From Planotetraspora silvatica (GTDB lineage Bacteria; Actinomycetota; Actinomycetes; Streptosporangiales; Streptosporangiaceae), in assembly GCF_016863315.1 (NCBI RefSeq), contig NZ_BOOQ01000016.1:1-64000 (forward strand): a stretch of 64,000 nt of DNA. The letters run 5' to 3'. Shown one piece after another: positions 15,011 to 26,633 of this stretch. Position numbers and translations under genes: made by a program. The first letter of the stretch is position 1, and each line of letters begins with the position of its first letter. Below the pieces are notes generated by a model. The model had not been told where the DNA came from, made no database searches, and saw only the letters and a list, made by a program, of their open reading frames with translations.

Positions 15011-16729
15011 TCAGCGACGCGTGAGCACCTCGGACTCCCACAGGTCCCGGTAATAGCCGGGAGTGGCGACCAGGGCGTCGTGCGGCCCGCGCTGCACGAC
15101 CCGTCCGCCCTCCAGGACGATGATCTCGTCCACCTGCTCGAGCCCGCGAAGACGGTGGGTGACCAGCACCGTCGTCCGGCCTCTTGTTGCGTCCAGCAGG
15201 TCGGCCAGCAGGGCGTCCGCCGTCTCCTCGTCGACGGCCTCCGCCGGCTCGTCCAGCAGGAGCACCTGCGGATCGAAAAGCAGGGCGCGGGCCAGGGCGA
15301 GGCGCTGGAGTTGCCCGCCGGACACCGTCCGCCCGTCCTCGCCGAGCGTCGTGTCCCATCCGGTCCGGTCAGTCCAGCCGTCCAGGCGGGCCTGCCGTAC
15401 GGCATGGGCGAGGTCCTCGTCGGAGGACTCCGGGCCGGCGAGCCGGAGGTTGTCGCGGAGAGTGGCCTGGAAGACGTAGGGATCCTGGGTGAGCCCGGTG
15501 ATCCTGGCACGGACGTCGTCGGAGGCGTACCGCCGGATGTCCACCCCATCGATCCTGATATTTCCGGATTCGAAGTCGACGGTCCGCATGAGTGCGGCCA
15601 GCAGGGTGCTCTTCCCGGCGCCGCTCGGCCCGACGATCGCCACCCGGTCGCCGGGCGCCAGCCTCATGCTCACCCCGTTGAGCGCGGGTTCCCTGTCCCC
15701 GTGGCGGACCACCAGATCCTCGATCTCGACGGTCGGCGGCGTTTCCGGCAACGTGAGGGGATCGCCTGGCTCGGCCACCGCCGGCGGTGTCGCGCCGATC
15801 TCCCGCAACCTCCGCAGGGCGGCGAGCACGCCGGCGAACCGTTCGCCCGCGGCCCCGAGCGGCAGCACGGGCTCGAAGGAGACCAGCGAGGTCAGGGCGA
15901 GGACGGCCGTCGCGACGCCGTCCAGATCCGCGGAACGGGCCGCGAGCACGACGGCCACCACGGTCAGCCCCTGCACGAGCACGCCGAGCCCGAGTGCCGC
16001 CGCGTTGACCCGCGACTGGCCGCGTTCGAGCTTCGCGAGCCGGGCGTCCGCGTCCATCCCGGCGGAGAGGGCCTGGTCCCGGGCGCCGTACGCCGCGAGG
16101 TCGGCCGCACCATGGACGAGGTCGGCCACGCGCGCGGCCAGTTCGGCCCTGGCCGGTGCGATCCGGGCGGACCATCTCCGCGCGGCCGCGGCCGTACCGG
16201 CAGGCAGGGCGACGCCCGCCACCAGCAGGCCCAGGGCCAGCAGGAGCGCCGCGAAGGGCAGGATGAACGCGGTGAGGACCACGGCGGCCGTCCCGGCGAG
16301 GAGCGCGGCGAGGGCGGGCAGCAGACACCGGACGAGCAGGTCCTGGACCGCGTCGGTGTCGTCCACCATCCGGCTGAGCAGGTCGGCGCCGCGCCGCGGC
16401 AGCGGCCCGGTGGGGACGAGCGCCTGGTAGAGGCGTTCGCGCGTGCCCGCCTGGGCGCGGAGGGCGACGTCGTGGCCGGACAGCCGCTCGCCGTACCTGA
16501 AGATCCCGCGGGTGGTGGCGAAGGCCCGCACCGCCACGATGGCGACGGAGAGCGCGGCCAGCGGAGGCTGCTCGGCCGCCCTCGTGATCATCCACGCGGC
16601 CGCCGCGATCAGCGCGATCCCCGCGAGGTCGGCGGCCGCCCCCGCGAGTGTCGCGAGGATCAGCCTTCGGGGCATCCCGGGCGCGAGAAGCCGCAGAGGT
16701 GTGCCGGATTCGGTGGCCATGCCGGTCAT
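15011..16729 (-). CDS. cydC: ABC transporter CydC (cytochrome bd assembly)
   Basis: A 572-residue half-transporter with an N-terminal six-helix membrane domain (about 20-310) and a C-terminal ATPase. Walker A is GPSGAGKST, the signature is VSGGQLQRLALARALL, Walker B is VLLLDEPAEAVDEE, and the switch is VTHRLRG. CydC pairs with CydD to form a heterodimer needed for maturation of cytochrome bd, probably by exporting thiols or handling heme. The start ATG overlaps the cydD stop (ATGA), so translation is coupled; a second ATG three codons later is an alternative. It is the last gene of cydABDC. Confidence 0.92.
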   Translation of the reverse strand: MTGMATESGTPLRLLAPGMPRRLILATLAGAAADLAGIALIAAAAWMITRAAEQPPLAALSVAIVAVRAFATTRGIFRYGERLSGHDVALRAQAGTRERLYQALVPTGPLPRRGADLLSRMVDDTDAVQDLLVRCLLPALAALLAGTAAVVLTAFILPFAALLLALGLLVAGVALPAGTAAAARRWSARIAPARAELAARVADLVHGAADLAAYGARDQALSAGMDADARLAKLERGQSRVNAAALGLGVLVQGLTVVAVVLAARSADLDGVATAVLALTSLVSFEPVLPLGAAGERFAGVLAALRRLREIGATPPAVAEPGDPLTLPETPPTVEIEDLVVRHGDREPALNGVSMRLAPGDRVAIVGPSGAGKSTLLAALMRTVDFESGNIRIDGVDIRRYASDDVRARITGLTQDPYVFQATLRDNLRLAGPESSDEDLAHAVRQARLDGWTDRTGWDTTLGEDGRTVSGGQLQRLALARALLFDPQVLLLDEPAEAVDEETADALLADLLDATRGRTTVLVTHRLRGLEQVDEIIVLEGGRVVQRGPHDALVATPGYYRDLWESEVLTRR

Positions 16730-18468: not shown

Positions 18469-19230
18469 TCAGAAGAACGTGGGCAGCGCACCCCTGCTGA
18501 AGGTGCGCCACACCCATACTTGCGCGCCCACGAGGATCGGGACGCACGGCAACACAATGGCACCCAGGGTGGTCAGTGTCTCCGGCGGGGCGGCGTGGTC
18601 GATGAGGGCGGAGGCAACGACGGCGACGGCCAGGGCGGCGGGGATCGCGGCCGTCAGAGCCGTCAGCAGCAGGGCCCTCCCGGTGCGCCGCGCTCCGCGG
18701 ACCGCGGGGTCGCCGGGGAGTCGCCACGCCGCGAAGGTCCAGCCGTGGACGCAGAACGCCAGCGCGACCACGATCCCCCCGGCGACGCCTGCCGGGCCGA
18801 GGAGGGGAGCCGACATTCCGCGGGCCAGCGCCACCAGCGTCATGCCCCAGGTCAGGGCCAGCCCGGCCGAGCCGAGGCAGATGGCGCCGTCCCACACCCT
18901 CCGCCAGGCGGCGCCGTCGGCGCGGCGGCGGAACCACAGGCCGGCGTCGCGTGTGATCCACGTCAGGAGCAGAGCCACGACCAGGGGGTACAGCCCGCTG
19001 AGCACCTCGCCTTCCAGGGTGGAGAAGGCGCCGAACAGGACGCCGACCAGCGCGACCAGCCAGACCTCGCCCGCGAGCACGAACGGCGCCATGGCCCCGA
19101 CGAGCCTGTCGCGATCTCCCTGAGACCGGCCGAGTACGGGCAGCAGGATGCCGAGCCCGATGTCGAAGCCCTCCAGGGCGAAGTAGCCGAGTAAGAGGAC
19201 GGCGAGGGCGCCGAACCAGATGATCTCCAT
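18469..19230 (-). CDS. cydB: Compact cytochrome bd oxidase subunit II (CydB-like)
   Basis: A 253-residue polytopic membrane protein. It begins like CydB (IIWFGALAVLLLGYFALEGFDIGLG) and ends with the family-type last helix (VPILVGAQVWVWRTF). It is about 80-120 residues shorter than usual CydB (roughly 330-380), with at least one helix pair missing in the C-terminal half. The conserved W-D-G-N-Q-V-W motif after helix 2 reads VLAGEVW, so the Asp (E. coli D58) linked to proton uptake is absent. It lies 11 bp after cydA and 33 bp before cydD in a cydABDC order, which supports the assignment. It could belong to a divergent bd-like group rather than a classical quinol oxidase. Confidence 0.82.
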   Translation of the reverse strand: MEIIWFGALAVLLLGYFALEGFDIGLGILLPVLGRSQGDRDRLVGAMAPFVLAGEVWLVALVGVLFGAFSTLEGEVLSGLYPLVVALLLTWITRDAGLWFRRRADGAAWRRVWDGAICLGSAGLALTWGMTLVALARGMSAPLLGPAGVAGGIVVALAFCVHGWTFAAWRLPGDPAVRGARRTGRALLLTALTAAIPAALAVAVVASALIDHAAPPETLTTLGAIVLPCVPILVGAQVWVWRTFSRGALPTFF

Positions 19231-19241
19231 GGTCGTGGTCC

Positions 19242-20426
19242 TCAGAGCGAGTGGGCGGGCTGGGGAACGGGGTCGGCCGGCCGGTCCGGCATGCCGAGGG
19301 ACACCTGACCGGGCCCACGGCGTACGGCACGGGCGATCAGCAGGTAGTCGATGATCGCGAGCAGGCCGAGCAGGCCCGCGAAGCCGACGAACGACCCGGT
19401 GATCGCGGCCTTGGAGAGCCCCGGCGTCATGGCGTCGGCGACGGAGAGCTTTCCGTACACCAGCCACGGCTGGCGGCCCATCTCCCGCACGAGCCATCCG
19501 GCGATCGCCGCGACGAACGGCAGCGGCGTGATGAGCATCAGCAGCGGATGCAGCCACCGCCACCGGGCGAGCAGGTTCTTGATCAGCAGAGGCAGCAGGA
19601 CGAACATCACCCCGAACTGGAGGAGCTGCCCGATCCCGATCATGAGGCCGAGCGCGGACTCCGGGGCGGCGTCGAACTTGCCGGGCTGGGTGGACTCGAT
19701 CACGCCGAACTGGGCGTATCCGAATCCGACGGTGAGCGCGGAGCCGACGGTCGCAGTCACCACACCCATCCGGAGCGACCGGGTGAAGAACTCCCGCTCG
19801 GCCGTCCGCCGGAACAGGTGGTACGCGCTGGCTCCCATGACGACGAACCCGCCGGTCCACAGGCCGGCGCTGATCACGTGGGGGAGCGCGAAGACCAGGT
19901 TCGGGTTGGTGAGCAGCGCTCCGAAGTCGCGCAGCACCAGGCGGCCGCCCTGCTCGACGGAGCCGACCGGGTGCTGGAGGAACGAGTTCGCCACCATGAT
20001 CCAGAAGGCCGAGGCGTAGGCGGTCAGCGTCACCAGCCAGATGCAGGTCACGTGAAGCGCCCGGGGCAGGCGATGCCAGCCGAAGATCCACAAGCCGAGG
20101 AACGTGGACTCGAGGAAGAAGGCCACCAGGGTCTCGATGGCGAGCGGCGCGCCGAAGACGTCGCCCGCGTATCGGGACAGGCCGCTCCAGCTCAGCCCGA
20201 ACTGGAACTCCATGACCAGGCCGGTGAAGATGCCGAGCGCGTAGTTGATCACATAGATCTGCCCCCAGAAGCGGGTCATCCGCTCGTGGAGGGGATCACC
20301 GGTGATCGCGTAGCGCGTGTGCATGATCGCCACGAGGGGGGCAAGGCCGAGGGTCAGTACGACGAACAGGAAGTGCAGGCTGCCGGTAACGGCGAACTGC
20401 GCCCTCGCGAGGTCGACGATGTCCAA
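19242..20426 (-). CDS. cydA: Compact cytochrome bd oxidase subunit I (CydA-like)
   Basis: A 394-residue heme-bearing subunit. Heme ligands are retained: His in SLHFLFVVLTLGL (E. coli H19), Glu in FFLESTFLGLW region (E99/E107), His in NSFLQHPVG (H186) and Met in REMGRQPWLVYG (M393). The quinol-binding Q-loop is almost gone: the sequence runs from STQPGKFDAAPES straight into the next helix (GLMIGIGQLLQFG), whereas typical CydA has about 60 or more extra residues including the conserved Pro-Pro segment. The start is a TTG preceded by GAGGAG. The gene heads cydABDC and is divergent from padR across a triple operator. Confidence 0.87.
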   Translation of the reverse strand: MDIVDLARAQFAVTGSLHFLFVVLTLGLAPLVAIMHTRYAITGDPLHERMTRFWGQIYVINYALGIFTGLVMEFQFGLSWSGLSRYAGDVFGAPLAIETLVAFFLESTFLGLWIFGWHRLPRALHVTCIWLVTLTAYASAFWIMVANSFLQHPVGSVEQGGRLVLRDFGALLTNPNLVFALPHVISAGLWTGGFVVMGASAYHLFRRTAEREFFTRSLRMGVVTATVGSALTVGFGYAQFGVIESTQPGKFDAAPESALGLMIGIGQLLQFGVMFVLLPLLIKNLLARWRWLHPLLMLITPLPFVAAIAGWLVREMGRQPWLVYGKLSVADAMTPGLSKAAITGSFVGFAGLLGLLAIIDYLLIARAVRRGPGQVSLGMPDRPADPVPQPAHSL

Positions 20427-20450
20427 GGGGGGCTCCTCAATAAATAGGGA

Positions 20451-20492
20451 GTCTACATATAGACAGCCTACATGTAGACTCGCTACATGTGG
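20451..20492. promoter_or_regulatory. Triple operator between cydA and padR
   Basis: Three decamers, CTACATATAG (20453-20462), CTACATGTAG (20468-20477) and CTACATGTGG (20483-20492), are spaced exactly 15 bp apart. The second is a perfect palindrome, and the first is embedded in GTCTA-CATA-TAGAC. ACAT/ATGT cores are typical of PadR-family operators. The array lies between the cydA TTG start (20426) and the padR GTG start (20513), so it could control both genes. Confidence 0.75.
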
Positions 20493-20512: not shown

Positions 20513-20836
20513 GTGAACCCCGACACGCTGCGAGGGCACATGGATGCCCTGTTGCTCTCCGTGGTGGAGCGTGAGCCTCTGCACGGCTACGCCATCATCG
20601 AGGCGCTGCGCGAGCGCAGCGACGGCGCGCTCGACGTCCCCACGGGGACGGTCTATCCGGCCCTGCGCAGGCTGGAGCGGGCCGGCTACCTGGCGGGTGA
20701 GTGGGCCGTGGCGGGCGGGCGCAAGCGGCGCACCTACCGCCTGACGGACTCGGGCCGCGCGGCGCTCGCGGGGGAGCGGTCGGCCTGGAAGTCGTTCACG
20801 ACGGCGATCGGGAGCGTGCTCGACCCCTCACGGTGA
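20513..20836 (+). CDS. PadR-family transcriptional regulator
   Basis: A 107-residue winged-helix regulator of the PadR family. The HTH region is MDALLLSVVEREPLHGYAII with the following ...TGTVYPALRRLERAGYL, the hallmark PadR pattern, and the wing is GGRKRRTYRLTDSGRAAL. The dimerisation helix is short (PadR-s2 type). The start is a GTG with TAAGCT (20501-20506) as a possible -10, so the message may be leaderless. Its binding site is probably the triple repeat at 20451-20492, which would make it autoregulatory and the regulator of cydABDC. The inducer is unknown. Its 3' end overlaps the convergent membrane-protein gene by 103 bp. Confidence 0.92.
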   Translation: MNPDTLRGHMDALLLSVVEREPLHGYAIIEALRERSDGALDVPTGTVYPALRRLERAGYLAGEWAVAGGRKRRTYRLTDSGRAALAGERSAWKSFTTAIGSVLDPSR

Positions 20837-21501
20837 ACGAACACCCGGCTGTGGTGGACGCAGAGCACCGCGCTGACGAACTGCCATGTTCCCAGCGCGT
20901 AGGTGAGCAGGGAGACGGCCACGCCGGGGGCGTAGTCGCCGAACCCCGGAGGGCCGTCGGCGCCCCGGACGAGGGCCATGCTCATCACGACTCTGACCGG
21001 GATCTGCGCCAGCACGAGGAGCCCCAGCGCGCGCGTCAGGATCCTGGGGCGCCGTAGCACCCGCAACCCCCGGCCGAGGGCGAGCAGGGCGACGCCGCCC
21101 AGGACGCCGGTCGCGAACTGCGTGTAGTCCAGGAGCCTGCTGACCGTCCAGAACCACTGCGGCGGAACGGGCGCGGCCGGCGAGTGGGGGAAGAACTCCC
21201 AGACCAGGCTCCACATCAACGCGGTGACCGGCACGCTGACGAACAGGAGCGCCGCGGTCCTGCGCCCCTGGCCCACCGCGAGCTCCTCCTGGAAGCCGGG
21301 GGCGATGTCGGTGACGGGCCCGAAGTCCGCGATCGCCAGCCGCTCGGCCTCGGCCCTGACGTGGCCCTCGGCCTCGTACGCCTCGGCCGCGTCGACCAGG
21401 CCGTCCCGTGCCTCGGCGAGCAGGTCCCGCCTGGCGCGGACCGGGCCATGGAGAAGACGGCGGAGCCCGGCCACGTAGTCGTCGATCGGACTCGTCGGCA
21501 C
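20734..21501 (-). CDS. Permease prefix domain-type membrane protein
   Basis: A 255-residue protein. The N-terminal 75 residues form a soluble helical domain (PIDDYVAGLRRLLHGPVRAR, then ...AYEAEGHVRAEAERLAIADFG) of the type called permease prefix domain, common next to PadR regulators in actinobacteria. Four or five membrane helices follow (about 85-230). The start is a GTG with GAGGAGGG upstream; the open frame extends further but without coding features. The last 34 codons overlap the 3' end of padR in antisense. Unlike the usual arrangement, the two genes are convergent rather than in one operon. The function of such proteins is unknown; a membrane sensor partner of PadR is a guess. Confidence 0.75.
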   Translation of the reverse strand: MPTSPIDDYVAGLRRLLHGPVRARRDLLAEARDGLVDAAEAYEAEGHVRAEAERLAIADFGPVTDIAPGFQEELAVGQGRRTAALLFVSVPVTALMWSLVWEFFPHSPAAPVPPQWFWTVSRLLDYTQFATGVLGGVALLALGRGLRVLRRPRILTRALGLLVLAQIPVRVVMSMALVRGADGPPGFGDYAPGVAVSLLTYALGTWQFVSAVLCVHHSRVFVHREGSSTLPIAVVNDFQADRSPASAARPESVRR

Positions 21502-21702
21502 CGTCTTCCCTCCTCTGCGGCCTCCGGAACTCCCGGAATGCCCGCCAGCGTATTGGCCGTCTCCACAACCCGCCATCGGGGTCAACCCTGACCCGACCCC
21601 GGAGGTCATGCCGTCGACGATTTTGTCTTTCTGACGTTTCGCCCCGGCAACACCTGATTAATCCTGGTAGGAGAGACTTGGGGCGGAGAGCGAGGCGGGA
21701 TT

Positions 21703-24832: not shown

Positions 24833-26515
24833 CTAGTCCCCCAACGGGTCGATCGCGTCGCGCTTCCCGGCGGGGGGCTCTCCCGGCATTCCCCCCGTCC
24901 TCGGGTAGCGCAGGTCGAAGGCGGGCCGCTCGGACCGGATCGGCGGGAGATATGTGAAGTTATGGCGCGGCGGCGGGCACGTGGTGACCCACTCCAGCGA
25001 ATTGCCGGAGCCCCAGGGGTCGTTCACGGTGACCCGCTCGCCGCGCCTCGCCGTATGCCAGACGTTGTACAGGAACGGCAGCGTCGAGGCGCCAAGCAGG
25101 AACGCGCCCACGCTGGAGATCTCGTTGAGCCGGGTGAAGCCGTCGACGGGGGAGTAGTCGCCGTAGCGCCGCGGCATCCCGATGACGCCGAGCAGGTGCT
25201 GGACCAGGAACGTCATGTGGAACCCGATGAACAGCATCCAGAAGTGGATCTTTCCGAGGGTCTCGTTCAGCATGGTTCCGGTGAACTTGGGCCACCAGAA
25301 GTAGAACCCGCCGAACATCGCGAACACCACCGTGCCGAACACCACATAGTGGAAGTGGGCCACCACGAAGTAACTGTCGGTCACGTGGAAGTCGAGCGGC
25401 GGTGACGCGAGGATCACCCCGGTGAGCCCGCCGAACAGGAACGTCACCAGGAACCCCACCGCGAACAACATCGGTGTCTCGAACGTCAGATGGCCGCGCC
25501 ACATGGTGCCGGTCCAGTTGAAGAACTTCACCCCGGTCGGAATCGCGATCAGGAACGACATGAGGGAGAAGAACGGCAGCAGCACCTGGCCGGTGGCGAA
25601 CATGTGGTGCGCCCACACGGTCATCGACAGTCCGGTGATCGCCATGGTCGCCCCGACCATGCCGATGTACCCGAACAGCGGCTTGCGGCTGAACACCGGA
25701 ATGATCTCGGTGATGATGCCGAAGAACGGCAGCGCGATGATGTAGACCTCGGGATGGCCGAAGAACCAGAACAGGTGCTGCCAGATCATGGGCCCGCCGG
25801 TCGCGGCGTCGAAGACGTGCGCTCCGAGCTTGCGGTCGGCCTCCAGCACGAGCAGCGCCGCGGCCAGCACCGGGAAGGCCAGCAGCACCAGGATCGACGT
25901 GAACAGCACGTTCCACGTGAAGATCGGCATCCGGAACATGTGCATGCCCGGCGCCCGCATCGTGATGATCGTGGTGATGAAGTTGACGGAGCCCAGGATC
26001 GTGCCGAGGCCGGACAGCGCCAGGCCCATGATCCACAGGTCGCCGCCCGGCGAGGGGGTGAACTCCGCGCCGGACAGCGGGGAGTAGGCCGTCCAGCCGA
26101 AGGCGGGCGCGCCCCCCACCACGAAGCCGGAGACCACCATGAGACCGCCGAAGAGGAACATCCAGTAGCTGACCATGTTGAGCCGGGGGAAGGCCACGTC
26201 GGGCGCGCCGATCTGGAGCGGCATGATCTCGTTGGCGAACCCGGCGAACAGCGGCGTCGCGAACAGCAGCAGCATGATCGTGCCGTGGAGGGTGAACATC
26301 TCGTTGTAGCGCTGCAGGCTGACGAACTGCAGACCGGGCTCGAGCAACTCGGCCCTGATCACCATCGCCATGAGGCCGCCGACCAGGAAGAAGCCGAAGG
26401 TGGTGATCAGGTAGAGGTGCCCGATCACCTTGTGGTCGGTGCTCGACAACCAGGAGGCCAGGACGGTGCCCAGCCGTTGTCGTTCGGGAACTGGCCTCAC
26501 GGCTTGAGTGGTCAT
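24833..26515 (-). CDS. ctaD: Cytochrome c oxidase subunit I
   Basis: A 560-residue, 12-helix catalytic subunit of an aa3-type heme-copper oxidase. Ligands are visible: heme a His in [10 protein letters not shown], CuB His and the cross-linked Tyr in [13 protein letters not shown], the CuB His pair in TVWAHHMF, and the heme His pair in [11 protein letters not shown]. The D-channel Asp is in [12 protein letters not shown] prefer the ATG at 26515 because AAAGGAG lies 8 nt upstream; the frame could start six codons earlier. No other cta genes are adjacent, so this is an orphan or extra copy, which actinomycetes often have. It is divergent from a thioredoxin gene across about 120 bp. Confidence 0.95.
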
Positions 26516-26633
26516 CCGGTGGCTCCTTTTCACGAAGGAGGTCCCGTGTGCTGATACCCGGCGCCGTGCGGTGGAATGCTGAGATCAGGTGTGTGGTTGT
26601 CCAAGTGACGGAACGGATGAAAGGAGTCGCCCC

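Follow-up and report, generated by a model that had tools for sequence, protein, structure and literature searches.

Comparison with known bd oxidases

The nearest described relatives of the oxidase analyzed here are the short-Q-loop menaquinol bd oxidases of actinobacteria (qOR1), represented by structures from Mycobacterium tuberculosis (7nkz), Mycobacterium smegmatis (7d5i) and Corynebacterium glutamicum (8b4o), which form the tree branch closest to its clade. In CydA, Arg391 (E. coli numbering) stabilizes the reduced haems and is required for quinol oxidation. OR-C enzymes are defined by carrying a CXXCH motif that binds haem c.

In the M. tuberculosis enzyme (PMC8413341), a helix bearing Lys258 and Glu263 lies over haem b558 and coordinates propionate A of this haem, Glu396 links a string of water molecules to the b558 propionates, Trp9 frames a menaquinone near haem b595, and CydB consists of nine helices. 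This feature was later argued to be structural (PMC11786768). Other papers describe, for E. coli bd, a water chain from D119A, K57A, K109B, D105B and Y379B to D58B (PMC6853902); further, the residues K53A, K57A, D105B, D58B, E107A and E74A (PMC13189123); and for M. smegmatis, a CydA route through H125, Q36, E106, S107 and S139 to E98, together with a CydB route (PMC8324918), where the suffixes A and B denote CydA and CydB. The OR-N and OR-C families of Murali et al. 2021, as cited in PMC13189123 and PMC10839748, resemble the enzyme described below in lacking the canonical quinol site, and OR-N enzymes are thought, although this is unproven, to draw electrons from cytochrome c rather than from quinol (PMC10839748). 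E. coli bd mutants with an altered Q-loop also have a shortened or changed loop, but these are laboratory constructs that, according to the titles of the reports, lost assembly or function, whereas the state described here is natural and conserved. A literature search, with most subscription papers beyond its reach, returned no description of a clade without a Q-loop within the quinol-type CydAs.

Locus and operon organization

The window, a stretch of 64,000 nucleotides from Planotetraspora silvatica, is part of contig C16 of an 8.66-Mb genome. It carries an operon with the order cydA-cydB-cydD-cydC on the minus strand, from position 20426 to 15011, with a divergent regulator gene upstream. 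The features discussed below are:

19242..20426, minus strand: cydA, compact, 394 residues; TTG start at 20426 with GAGGAG upstream
18469..19230, minus strand: cydB, compact, 253 residues; ATG start at 19230 within a longer open frame; seven predicted long helices
16726..18435, minus strand: cydD, one subunit of CydDC, the ABC exporter pair for bd assembly; TIGR02857, 601 bits (cut-off 435)
15011..16729, minus strand: cydC, partner of CydD; TIGR02868, 489 bits (cut-off 329)
20513..20836, plus strand: PadR-family regulator, divergent from cydA; homologue in the flanks of 76 of 80 relatives
20449..20490, no strand: CTACAT/ATGTAG repeats 5' of cydA; possible PadR operator
20734..21609, minus strand: HAAS-domain membrane protein; neighbor of the PadR gene in 70 of 80 relatives
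19662..19688, minus strand: Q-loop remnant of CydA, Q247-P-G-K250 to A255, joining helices 6 and 7; K250 corresponds to E. coli K252
19485..19487, minus strand: CydA R314 (E. coli A444), new Arg in 44 of 44 clade rows; adjoins E315 (E. coli E445)
19060..19080, minus strand: CydB VLAGEVW, residues 51–57, replacing E. coli WDGNQVW; L52 corresponds to D58
18934..18936, minus strand: CydB W99, in the position of D105, the second channel acid of E. coli
19012..19014, minus strand: CydB E73 (E. coli Y79), acidic residue new to the clade (43 of 44 rows)

CydA matches PF01654 with an E-value of 4.7e-110 in two stretches, the best of which ends at position 248 of the 418-position profile, and CydB matches PF02322 with an E-value of 4.4e-45, the best stretch covering profile positions 1–212 of 302. 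Both subunits score above the Pfam cut-offs, yet below the NCBIfam cut-offs for the standard subunits (for CydB, 85.3 bits against a TIGR00203 cut-off of 117.3). CydD and CydC exceed their own NCBIfam cut-offs, in agreement with the original prediction, made from the window alone, that CydDC accompanies the oxidase. The pair belongs to the cytochrome bd superfamily by its CydA and CydB families, its fold and its ligands for haems b558, b595 and d, and it shares the fold, the haem ligands, the proton-route residues of CydA and the cydABDC gene set with the actinobacterial short-Q-loop enzymes.

The PadR and HAAS genes lie on opposite strands, and their open frames share about 100 bp at their 3' ends (20734..20836). 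A ctaD-like frame (cytochrome c oxidase subunit I) lies at 24833..26533, 4.4 kb from cydA, with homologues in the flanks of 13 of the 80 relatives.

CydA lacks the Q-loop

Nearly the whole Q-loop had been predicted to be missing from a CydA that keeps its haem-ligand motifs, and both statements are borne out. Residues 256–384 of E. coli CydA, the Q-loop past its first lysine, have no counterpart in the aligned window protein. Only 7 residues separate the Q-loop lysine from helix 7 in this alignment, compared to 68 in the canonical CydA of the same genome, and the distance from QPxK to GRQPW is 70 residues, as against 133–148 in the 26 full-length actinobacterial rows in which the motif was found. 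The AlphaFold model (35 sequences, pLDDT 91.3) contains a 9-residue link between helix 211–246 and helix 256–277, and superposes on E. coli bd-II CydA (7ose_A) with a Z-score of 48.5 and 1.8 Å for 372 residues. The qOR-2 enzyme of M. smegmatis (9r2g, Z 40.8) also shares the fold, with about 24% identity over that superposition; the counterpart of 9r2g in this genome is the bd of contig C6 rather than that of the window. The ligands of haems b558, b595 and d are retained in the window protein (H18, E98, H183, M262 and E315).

Distribution and evolution of the short form

A contig scan identified 436 relatives, and the 80 best-scoring among them were used. These 80 share the architecture, with CydA of 381–416 residues and CydB of 206–335 residues (window included, measured from the aligned start), which rules out a frameshift or an assembly loss as the origin of the missing Q-loop. 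The nearest to the window CydA among the best 80 of the 436 are from Planotetraspora species (93–97% identity). For wider searches, a profile was built from 25 truncated CydAs. Within the window's family it matched 75 of 150 genomes at an E-value of 1e-130 or better, and within its class 44 of 394 at the same threshold; both counts are probably lower bounds, as the family also yields matches near 404–425 bits, each spanning some 1.2 kb, that may represent deeper short forms. Only three matches above 500 bits were found in a phylum sample of 396 genomes, the next scoring 421. All 28 class-search loci that were read individually (L131–L158) encode a CydA of 386–435 residues.

Both genes are under purifying selection, and neither is broken. 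Nei-Gojobori dN/dS ratios against three congeners are 0.095, 0.223 and 0.172 for cydA and 0.191, 0.161 and 0.157 for cydB; against four more distant relatives they are 0.21–0.32 and 0.32–0.43, respectively, increasing with distance.

A CydA tree of 71 rows was calculated with the Q-loop columns removed. It comprises the window, 20 of the best 80 relatives and loci from the phylum and class searches, with 19 near-duplicates, L101 (the window's own locus) and L091 omitted. All 44 short forms, 29 essentially loop-free and 15 with a loop stub, form one clade (SH-aLRT 99). In a more careful tree of 52 rows, obtained by removing 19 further rows, the 30 short rows again form one clade (support 100/99, stem 0.50), which is nested in the E. 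coli-type (qOR1-like) branch (100/99) and adjoins the canonical enzymes of Priestia and actinobacteria (99/95). Placement among the bd subfamilies, proposed originally as a check, is thus given within a set of quinol-type references, OR-N and OR-C being absent from the tree. Nesting of the clade within the qOR1-like branch, next to actinobacterial quinol oxidases, makes the loss of the Q-loop look independent of OR-N and OR-C, as far as a tree of quinol-type CydAs can show. The loop-free state requires four changes on the 71-row tree; therefore, complete loss from a stub has probably recurred.

One plasmid of Streptomyces sp. NBC_00536 (L095:3001-4731) encodes a Q-loop-truncated CydA of 576 residues, with a long Gly/Pro/Gln-rich insert between helices 7 and 8, a long tree branch and the Q-loop lysine present.

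Haem core and quinol-site residues of CydA

Residues were compared between the 44 clade rows and the canonical rows, 23 for CydA and 22 for CydB (Priestia has no CydB row); four distant quinol-type rows (the genome's own C6 enzyme, Haloterrigena, Rhizobium and Trichormus) were excluded from the canonical counts, and the canonical CydB rows L110 and L112 are short, apparently ended by contig ends. In E. coli numbering, H19, H186, M393, E74, E99, E107, S108, S140, H126, W441, E445, R448 and Q449 are invariant in 44/44 clade CydAs. Among the window and the best 80 of its 436 relatives, H19, E74, E99, E107, H186, E445 and R448 are likewise conserved in 81/81, and M393 is Met in 79 and Leu in two.

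The quinol-site residues behave differently from those of the canonical enzymes, whose Q-loop carries both Lys and Glu. Glu257, Phe390 and Arg391 are each present in 23/23 canonical rows, whereas they occur in 4, 2 and 0 of the 44 clade rows; in the window protein, Glu257 is absent and Phe390 and Arg391 are replaced by L259 and G260. The four rows with Glu257 are L147, L148 and two Streptomyces plasmid copies, and in these four the stub is aligned with some uncertainty. Trp9, the residue of the proposed second menaquinone site in M. tuberculosis, is found in none of the clade rows, compared to 14 of 23 canonical rows. These aligned residues support a loss of the canonical quinol site from the window clade at residue level, beyond mere shortening. 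Lys252 is present in 43/44 clade CydAs (the exception is L156), which argues against a complete loss of the site, and its retention would be explained if, as in the Lys258 helix of M. tuberculosis, it coordinates a propionate of haem b558.

Several residues are new in the clade. Y58, Y62, G82, T99, A136 and R314 are found in 44/44 CydAs, T135 in 43/44 and Y137 in 42/44.

Compared to the described types, the window enzyme has the tree placement of qOR1, but only the lysine of the Lys252–Glu257 pair and neither F390 nor R391. The absence of a quinol site that characterizes OR-N is found in window CydA; the clade differs from both OR-N and OR-C in lying within the qOR1-like branch, in having a true CydB partner and in lacking a haem-c motif. 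No CXXCH was found in window CydA or CydB, and assignment to OR-C is ruled out. Of the originally suggested links to an altered quinol site and to the OR types, the former is thus upheld at residue level and the tie to OR-C is not. Retention of Lys252, the loss of F390 and R391 on helix 7 and the loss of a second CydB acid, described next, extend the original prediction.

CydB lacks two helices and the channel acids

Coordinates, frames and alignment agree on a CydB of 253 residues in which V51-L52-A53-G54-E55-V56-W57 aligns with W57-D58-G59-N60-Q61-V62-W63 of E. coli, as first reported. The predicted absence of a helix pair also holds. Residues 196–279 of E. coli CydB, along with smaller pieces, have no counterpart in the alignment, and seven long helices are seen in the AlphaFold model (29 sequences, pLDDT 91.5), as compared to nine in M. 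tuberculosis and the other solved actinobacterial structures. The model superposes on C. glutamicum CydB (8b4o_B, 330 residues in the structure) with a Z-score of 28.3 and 2.3 Å for 251 of its 253 residues.

The position of D58 is occupied by Leu (43) or Phe (1) in the 44 clade rows, and by Asp (21) or Asn (1) in the 22 canonical rows. At D105 the clade has Trp (31) or Gln (13), whereas the canonical rows have Glu (20) or Asp (2). W57 is present in 22/22 canonical rows and in 0/44 clade rows. D58 and E105 are also present in the three distant quinol-type CydBs from Rhizobium, Haloterrigena and Trichormus. A new acid of the clade, E73 (43/44), would lie on the outer side, judging by topology. 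Three Streptomyces plasmids encode a stub CydA of 433–437 residues with a full-length CydB of 343–348 residues that already lacks the acids, which suggests that the acids were lost before the CydB helices.

The proton-route residues borne by CydA (H126, E107, S108, S140 and E99) are intact in 44/44 clade rows; the Gln36 position varies in the clade, as it does in canonical enzymes. Judged from the alignment, the clade has lost the CydB proton route and kept that of CydA. The missing proton-channel Asp of the original prediction is real and accompanied by loss of D105, but loss of cytoplasmic proton uptake does not follow from it, because the CydA route is intact.

Genomic context, other oxidases and possible donors

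Twelve window genes were compared to the cydA flanks of the 80 relatives, some of whose loci end at contig ends. Homologues were found for PadR in 76, CydD in 75, HAAS in 70, CydC in 66, a thioredoxin-like protein in 46 and a nuclease-like protein in 42, and for the other neighbors in fewer; CydC and CydD are alike, and some of the CydC matches may be CydD. CydDC was not found in the examined flank of five of the 80 (L025, L027, L076, L083 and L086). Of 81 upstream stretches, 78 contain the hexamer CTACAT/ATGTAG, whereas base-shuffled copies give a mean of 3.4, in a set of relatives that are not independent of one another. At 12 further loci, whose frames were read by eye, the neighbors differ (response regulator, LysR, PadR).

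No electron-carrier gene is present in the operon, and none is constant among the neighbors of the 80 relatives or of the 12 loci read by eye, a comparison that would miss carriers encoded elsewhere in the genome. A dedicated donor gene within the operon is thus ruled out. The thioredoxin-like gene lies 6 kb away. Only one frame of the whole genome matches PF00034 and PF13442, a 307-codon frame with two CXXCH motifs that is QcrC-like by its setting.

Full-length CydA (PF01654, from positions 1–2 to 417–418) was found in 20 of 20 genomes chosen for carrying the short form. The window genome has two further bd loci, a canonical one on C15 and a third on C6. The canonical cydAB (L088, G000:C15:64000-80000) adjoins frames that by eye are CO-dehydrogenase-like (CoxM-type), which would fit a CO-tolerant oxidase. 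The CydA of the third locus (G000:C6:50469-52735) is closest to the qOR-2 structure 9r2g. The main text of an omics paper on Planobispora rosea (PMC4514598) mentions neither cytochrome, oxidase, respiratory nor menaquinone, and thus offers no expression evidence.

On three Streptomyces plasmids (L092, L093 and L094), a stub-loop cydABDC has as neighbors a LysR gene in divergent orientation and a second gene that carries a 2Fe-2S protein annotation. A Fer2 domain was confirmed in the 2Fe-2S gene of L092, and a hemerythrin gene is near two of the three copies, a possible donor or stress module. The 324-bp gene annotated as 2Fe-2S at L094:4373-4696 also bears a predicted tet(W/32/O) label at 100% identity, which looks like a mislabel. 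A Fer2 ferredoxin like that of the plasmid copies was not found near the window operon.

Proposed mechanism and alternatives

The preferred reading, to which we assign a probability of roughly 0.4, is that the window encodes a bd paralogue that reduces O2 and receives its electrons at a haem b558 without cover, probably from menaquinol in a lidless mode, with protons supplied through CydA. O2 would still be reduced at haem d. Electrons would enter at haem b558, uncovered on the outer face, without the chemistry of a Q-loop lid, and the donor, most likely menaquinol, would reach the open side of helices 6 and 7 from the membrane. Protons would pass to haem d along the route that CydA still has (H126, E107, S108, S140 and E99). 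The new R314, next to E445, may substitute for the charge of the missing R391, since the M. tuberculosis counterpart of E445, E396, is joined to the b558 propionates by a string of water molecules. PadR would control the operon, adding an extra oxidase beside the canonical bd. The conserved haem core (44/44), the superpositions, the presence of cydDC in the operon, purifying selection, Lys252 (43/44), the CydA proton-route residues (44/44) and the full-length CydA alongside (20/20 genomes) support this reading, and with no carrier gene at the operon and a single, QcrC-like PF00034/PF13442 gene in the genome, the menaquinol pool is the simplest donor. Against menaquinol at the old b558 site stands the loss of F390 and R391, both kept in all canonical rows, and of Trp9. 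The five of 80 relatives in whose flanks cydDC was not found also speak against the preferred reading.

The same haem core could instead receive electrons from a non-quinol donor, either QcrC of the bcc complex, another carrier protein or a small reductant reaching the exposed b558 from the outer face. By analogy with OR-N, a different donor may well serve a bd core that has no quinol site, and direct handover of electrons to b558 has been supposed for OR-N and OR-C enzymes. R391, Trp9 and CydB D58 and D105 are absent from the entire clade, E257 and F390 nearly so, and the Q-loop seems to have eroded further repeatedly (four changes), as if a quinol lid were no longer selected. Such a donor is nonetheless somewhat doubtful, given that no carrier gene lies in the operon or constantly beside it (even the thioredoxin-like homologues reach only 46/80), that the one c-type cytochrome gene found with PF00034 and PF13442 is itself QcrC-like and that the plasmid-type ferredoxin is not found near the window operon.

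A slow scavenger of O2, NO or peroxide, or a haem-based sensor, serving in stress rather than mainly in respiration, is unlikely. The full-length CydA alongside it in 20/20 genomes, the loss of the CydB acids, regulators that differ by subclade (PadR, LysR or response regulator) and the hemerythrin-domain gene near two of the three plasmid copies would fit such a role, but the haem-d pocket and the proton residues of CydA are invariant, and CydDC and a full catalytic set are unexpected for a sensor.

Also improbable is a rebuilt coupling, in which both halves of the energy-coupling machinery would have been remade on one evolutionary branch: a non-quinol donor at b558 would be combined with proton uptake through new conserved groups (Y58, Y62, T99, Y137 and R314 of CydA, and E73 of CydB, on the outer side by topology) instead of the CydB channel, so that O2 would be reduced with little or no proton-motive force. 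That the protein is an ordinary menaquinol oxidase with an intact quinol site, its loss being an artefact of alignment or assembly, is very improbable despite the nesting among quinol oxidases and the retained K252, given the shared architecture of the best 80 of 436 relatives, the unbroken frames, the confident loop-less model and the loss of the helix-7 residues.

The clade is a natural deletion experiment, in which the haem core is kept while the acids of CydB and the two quinol sites that have been proposed are missing. The position of the quinol in short-loop bd oxidases and the identity of the proton-carrying residues are debated points relevant to bd-targeting drugs. If the enzyme turns over menaquinol, the Q-loop would be dispensable in this lineage; if it does not, another donor would await discovery in common filamentous soil bacteria.
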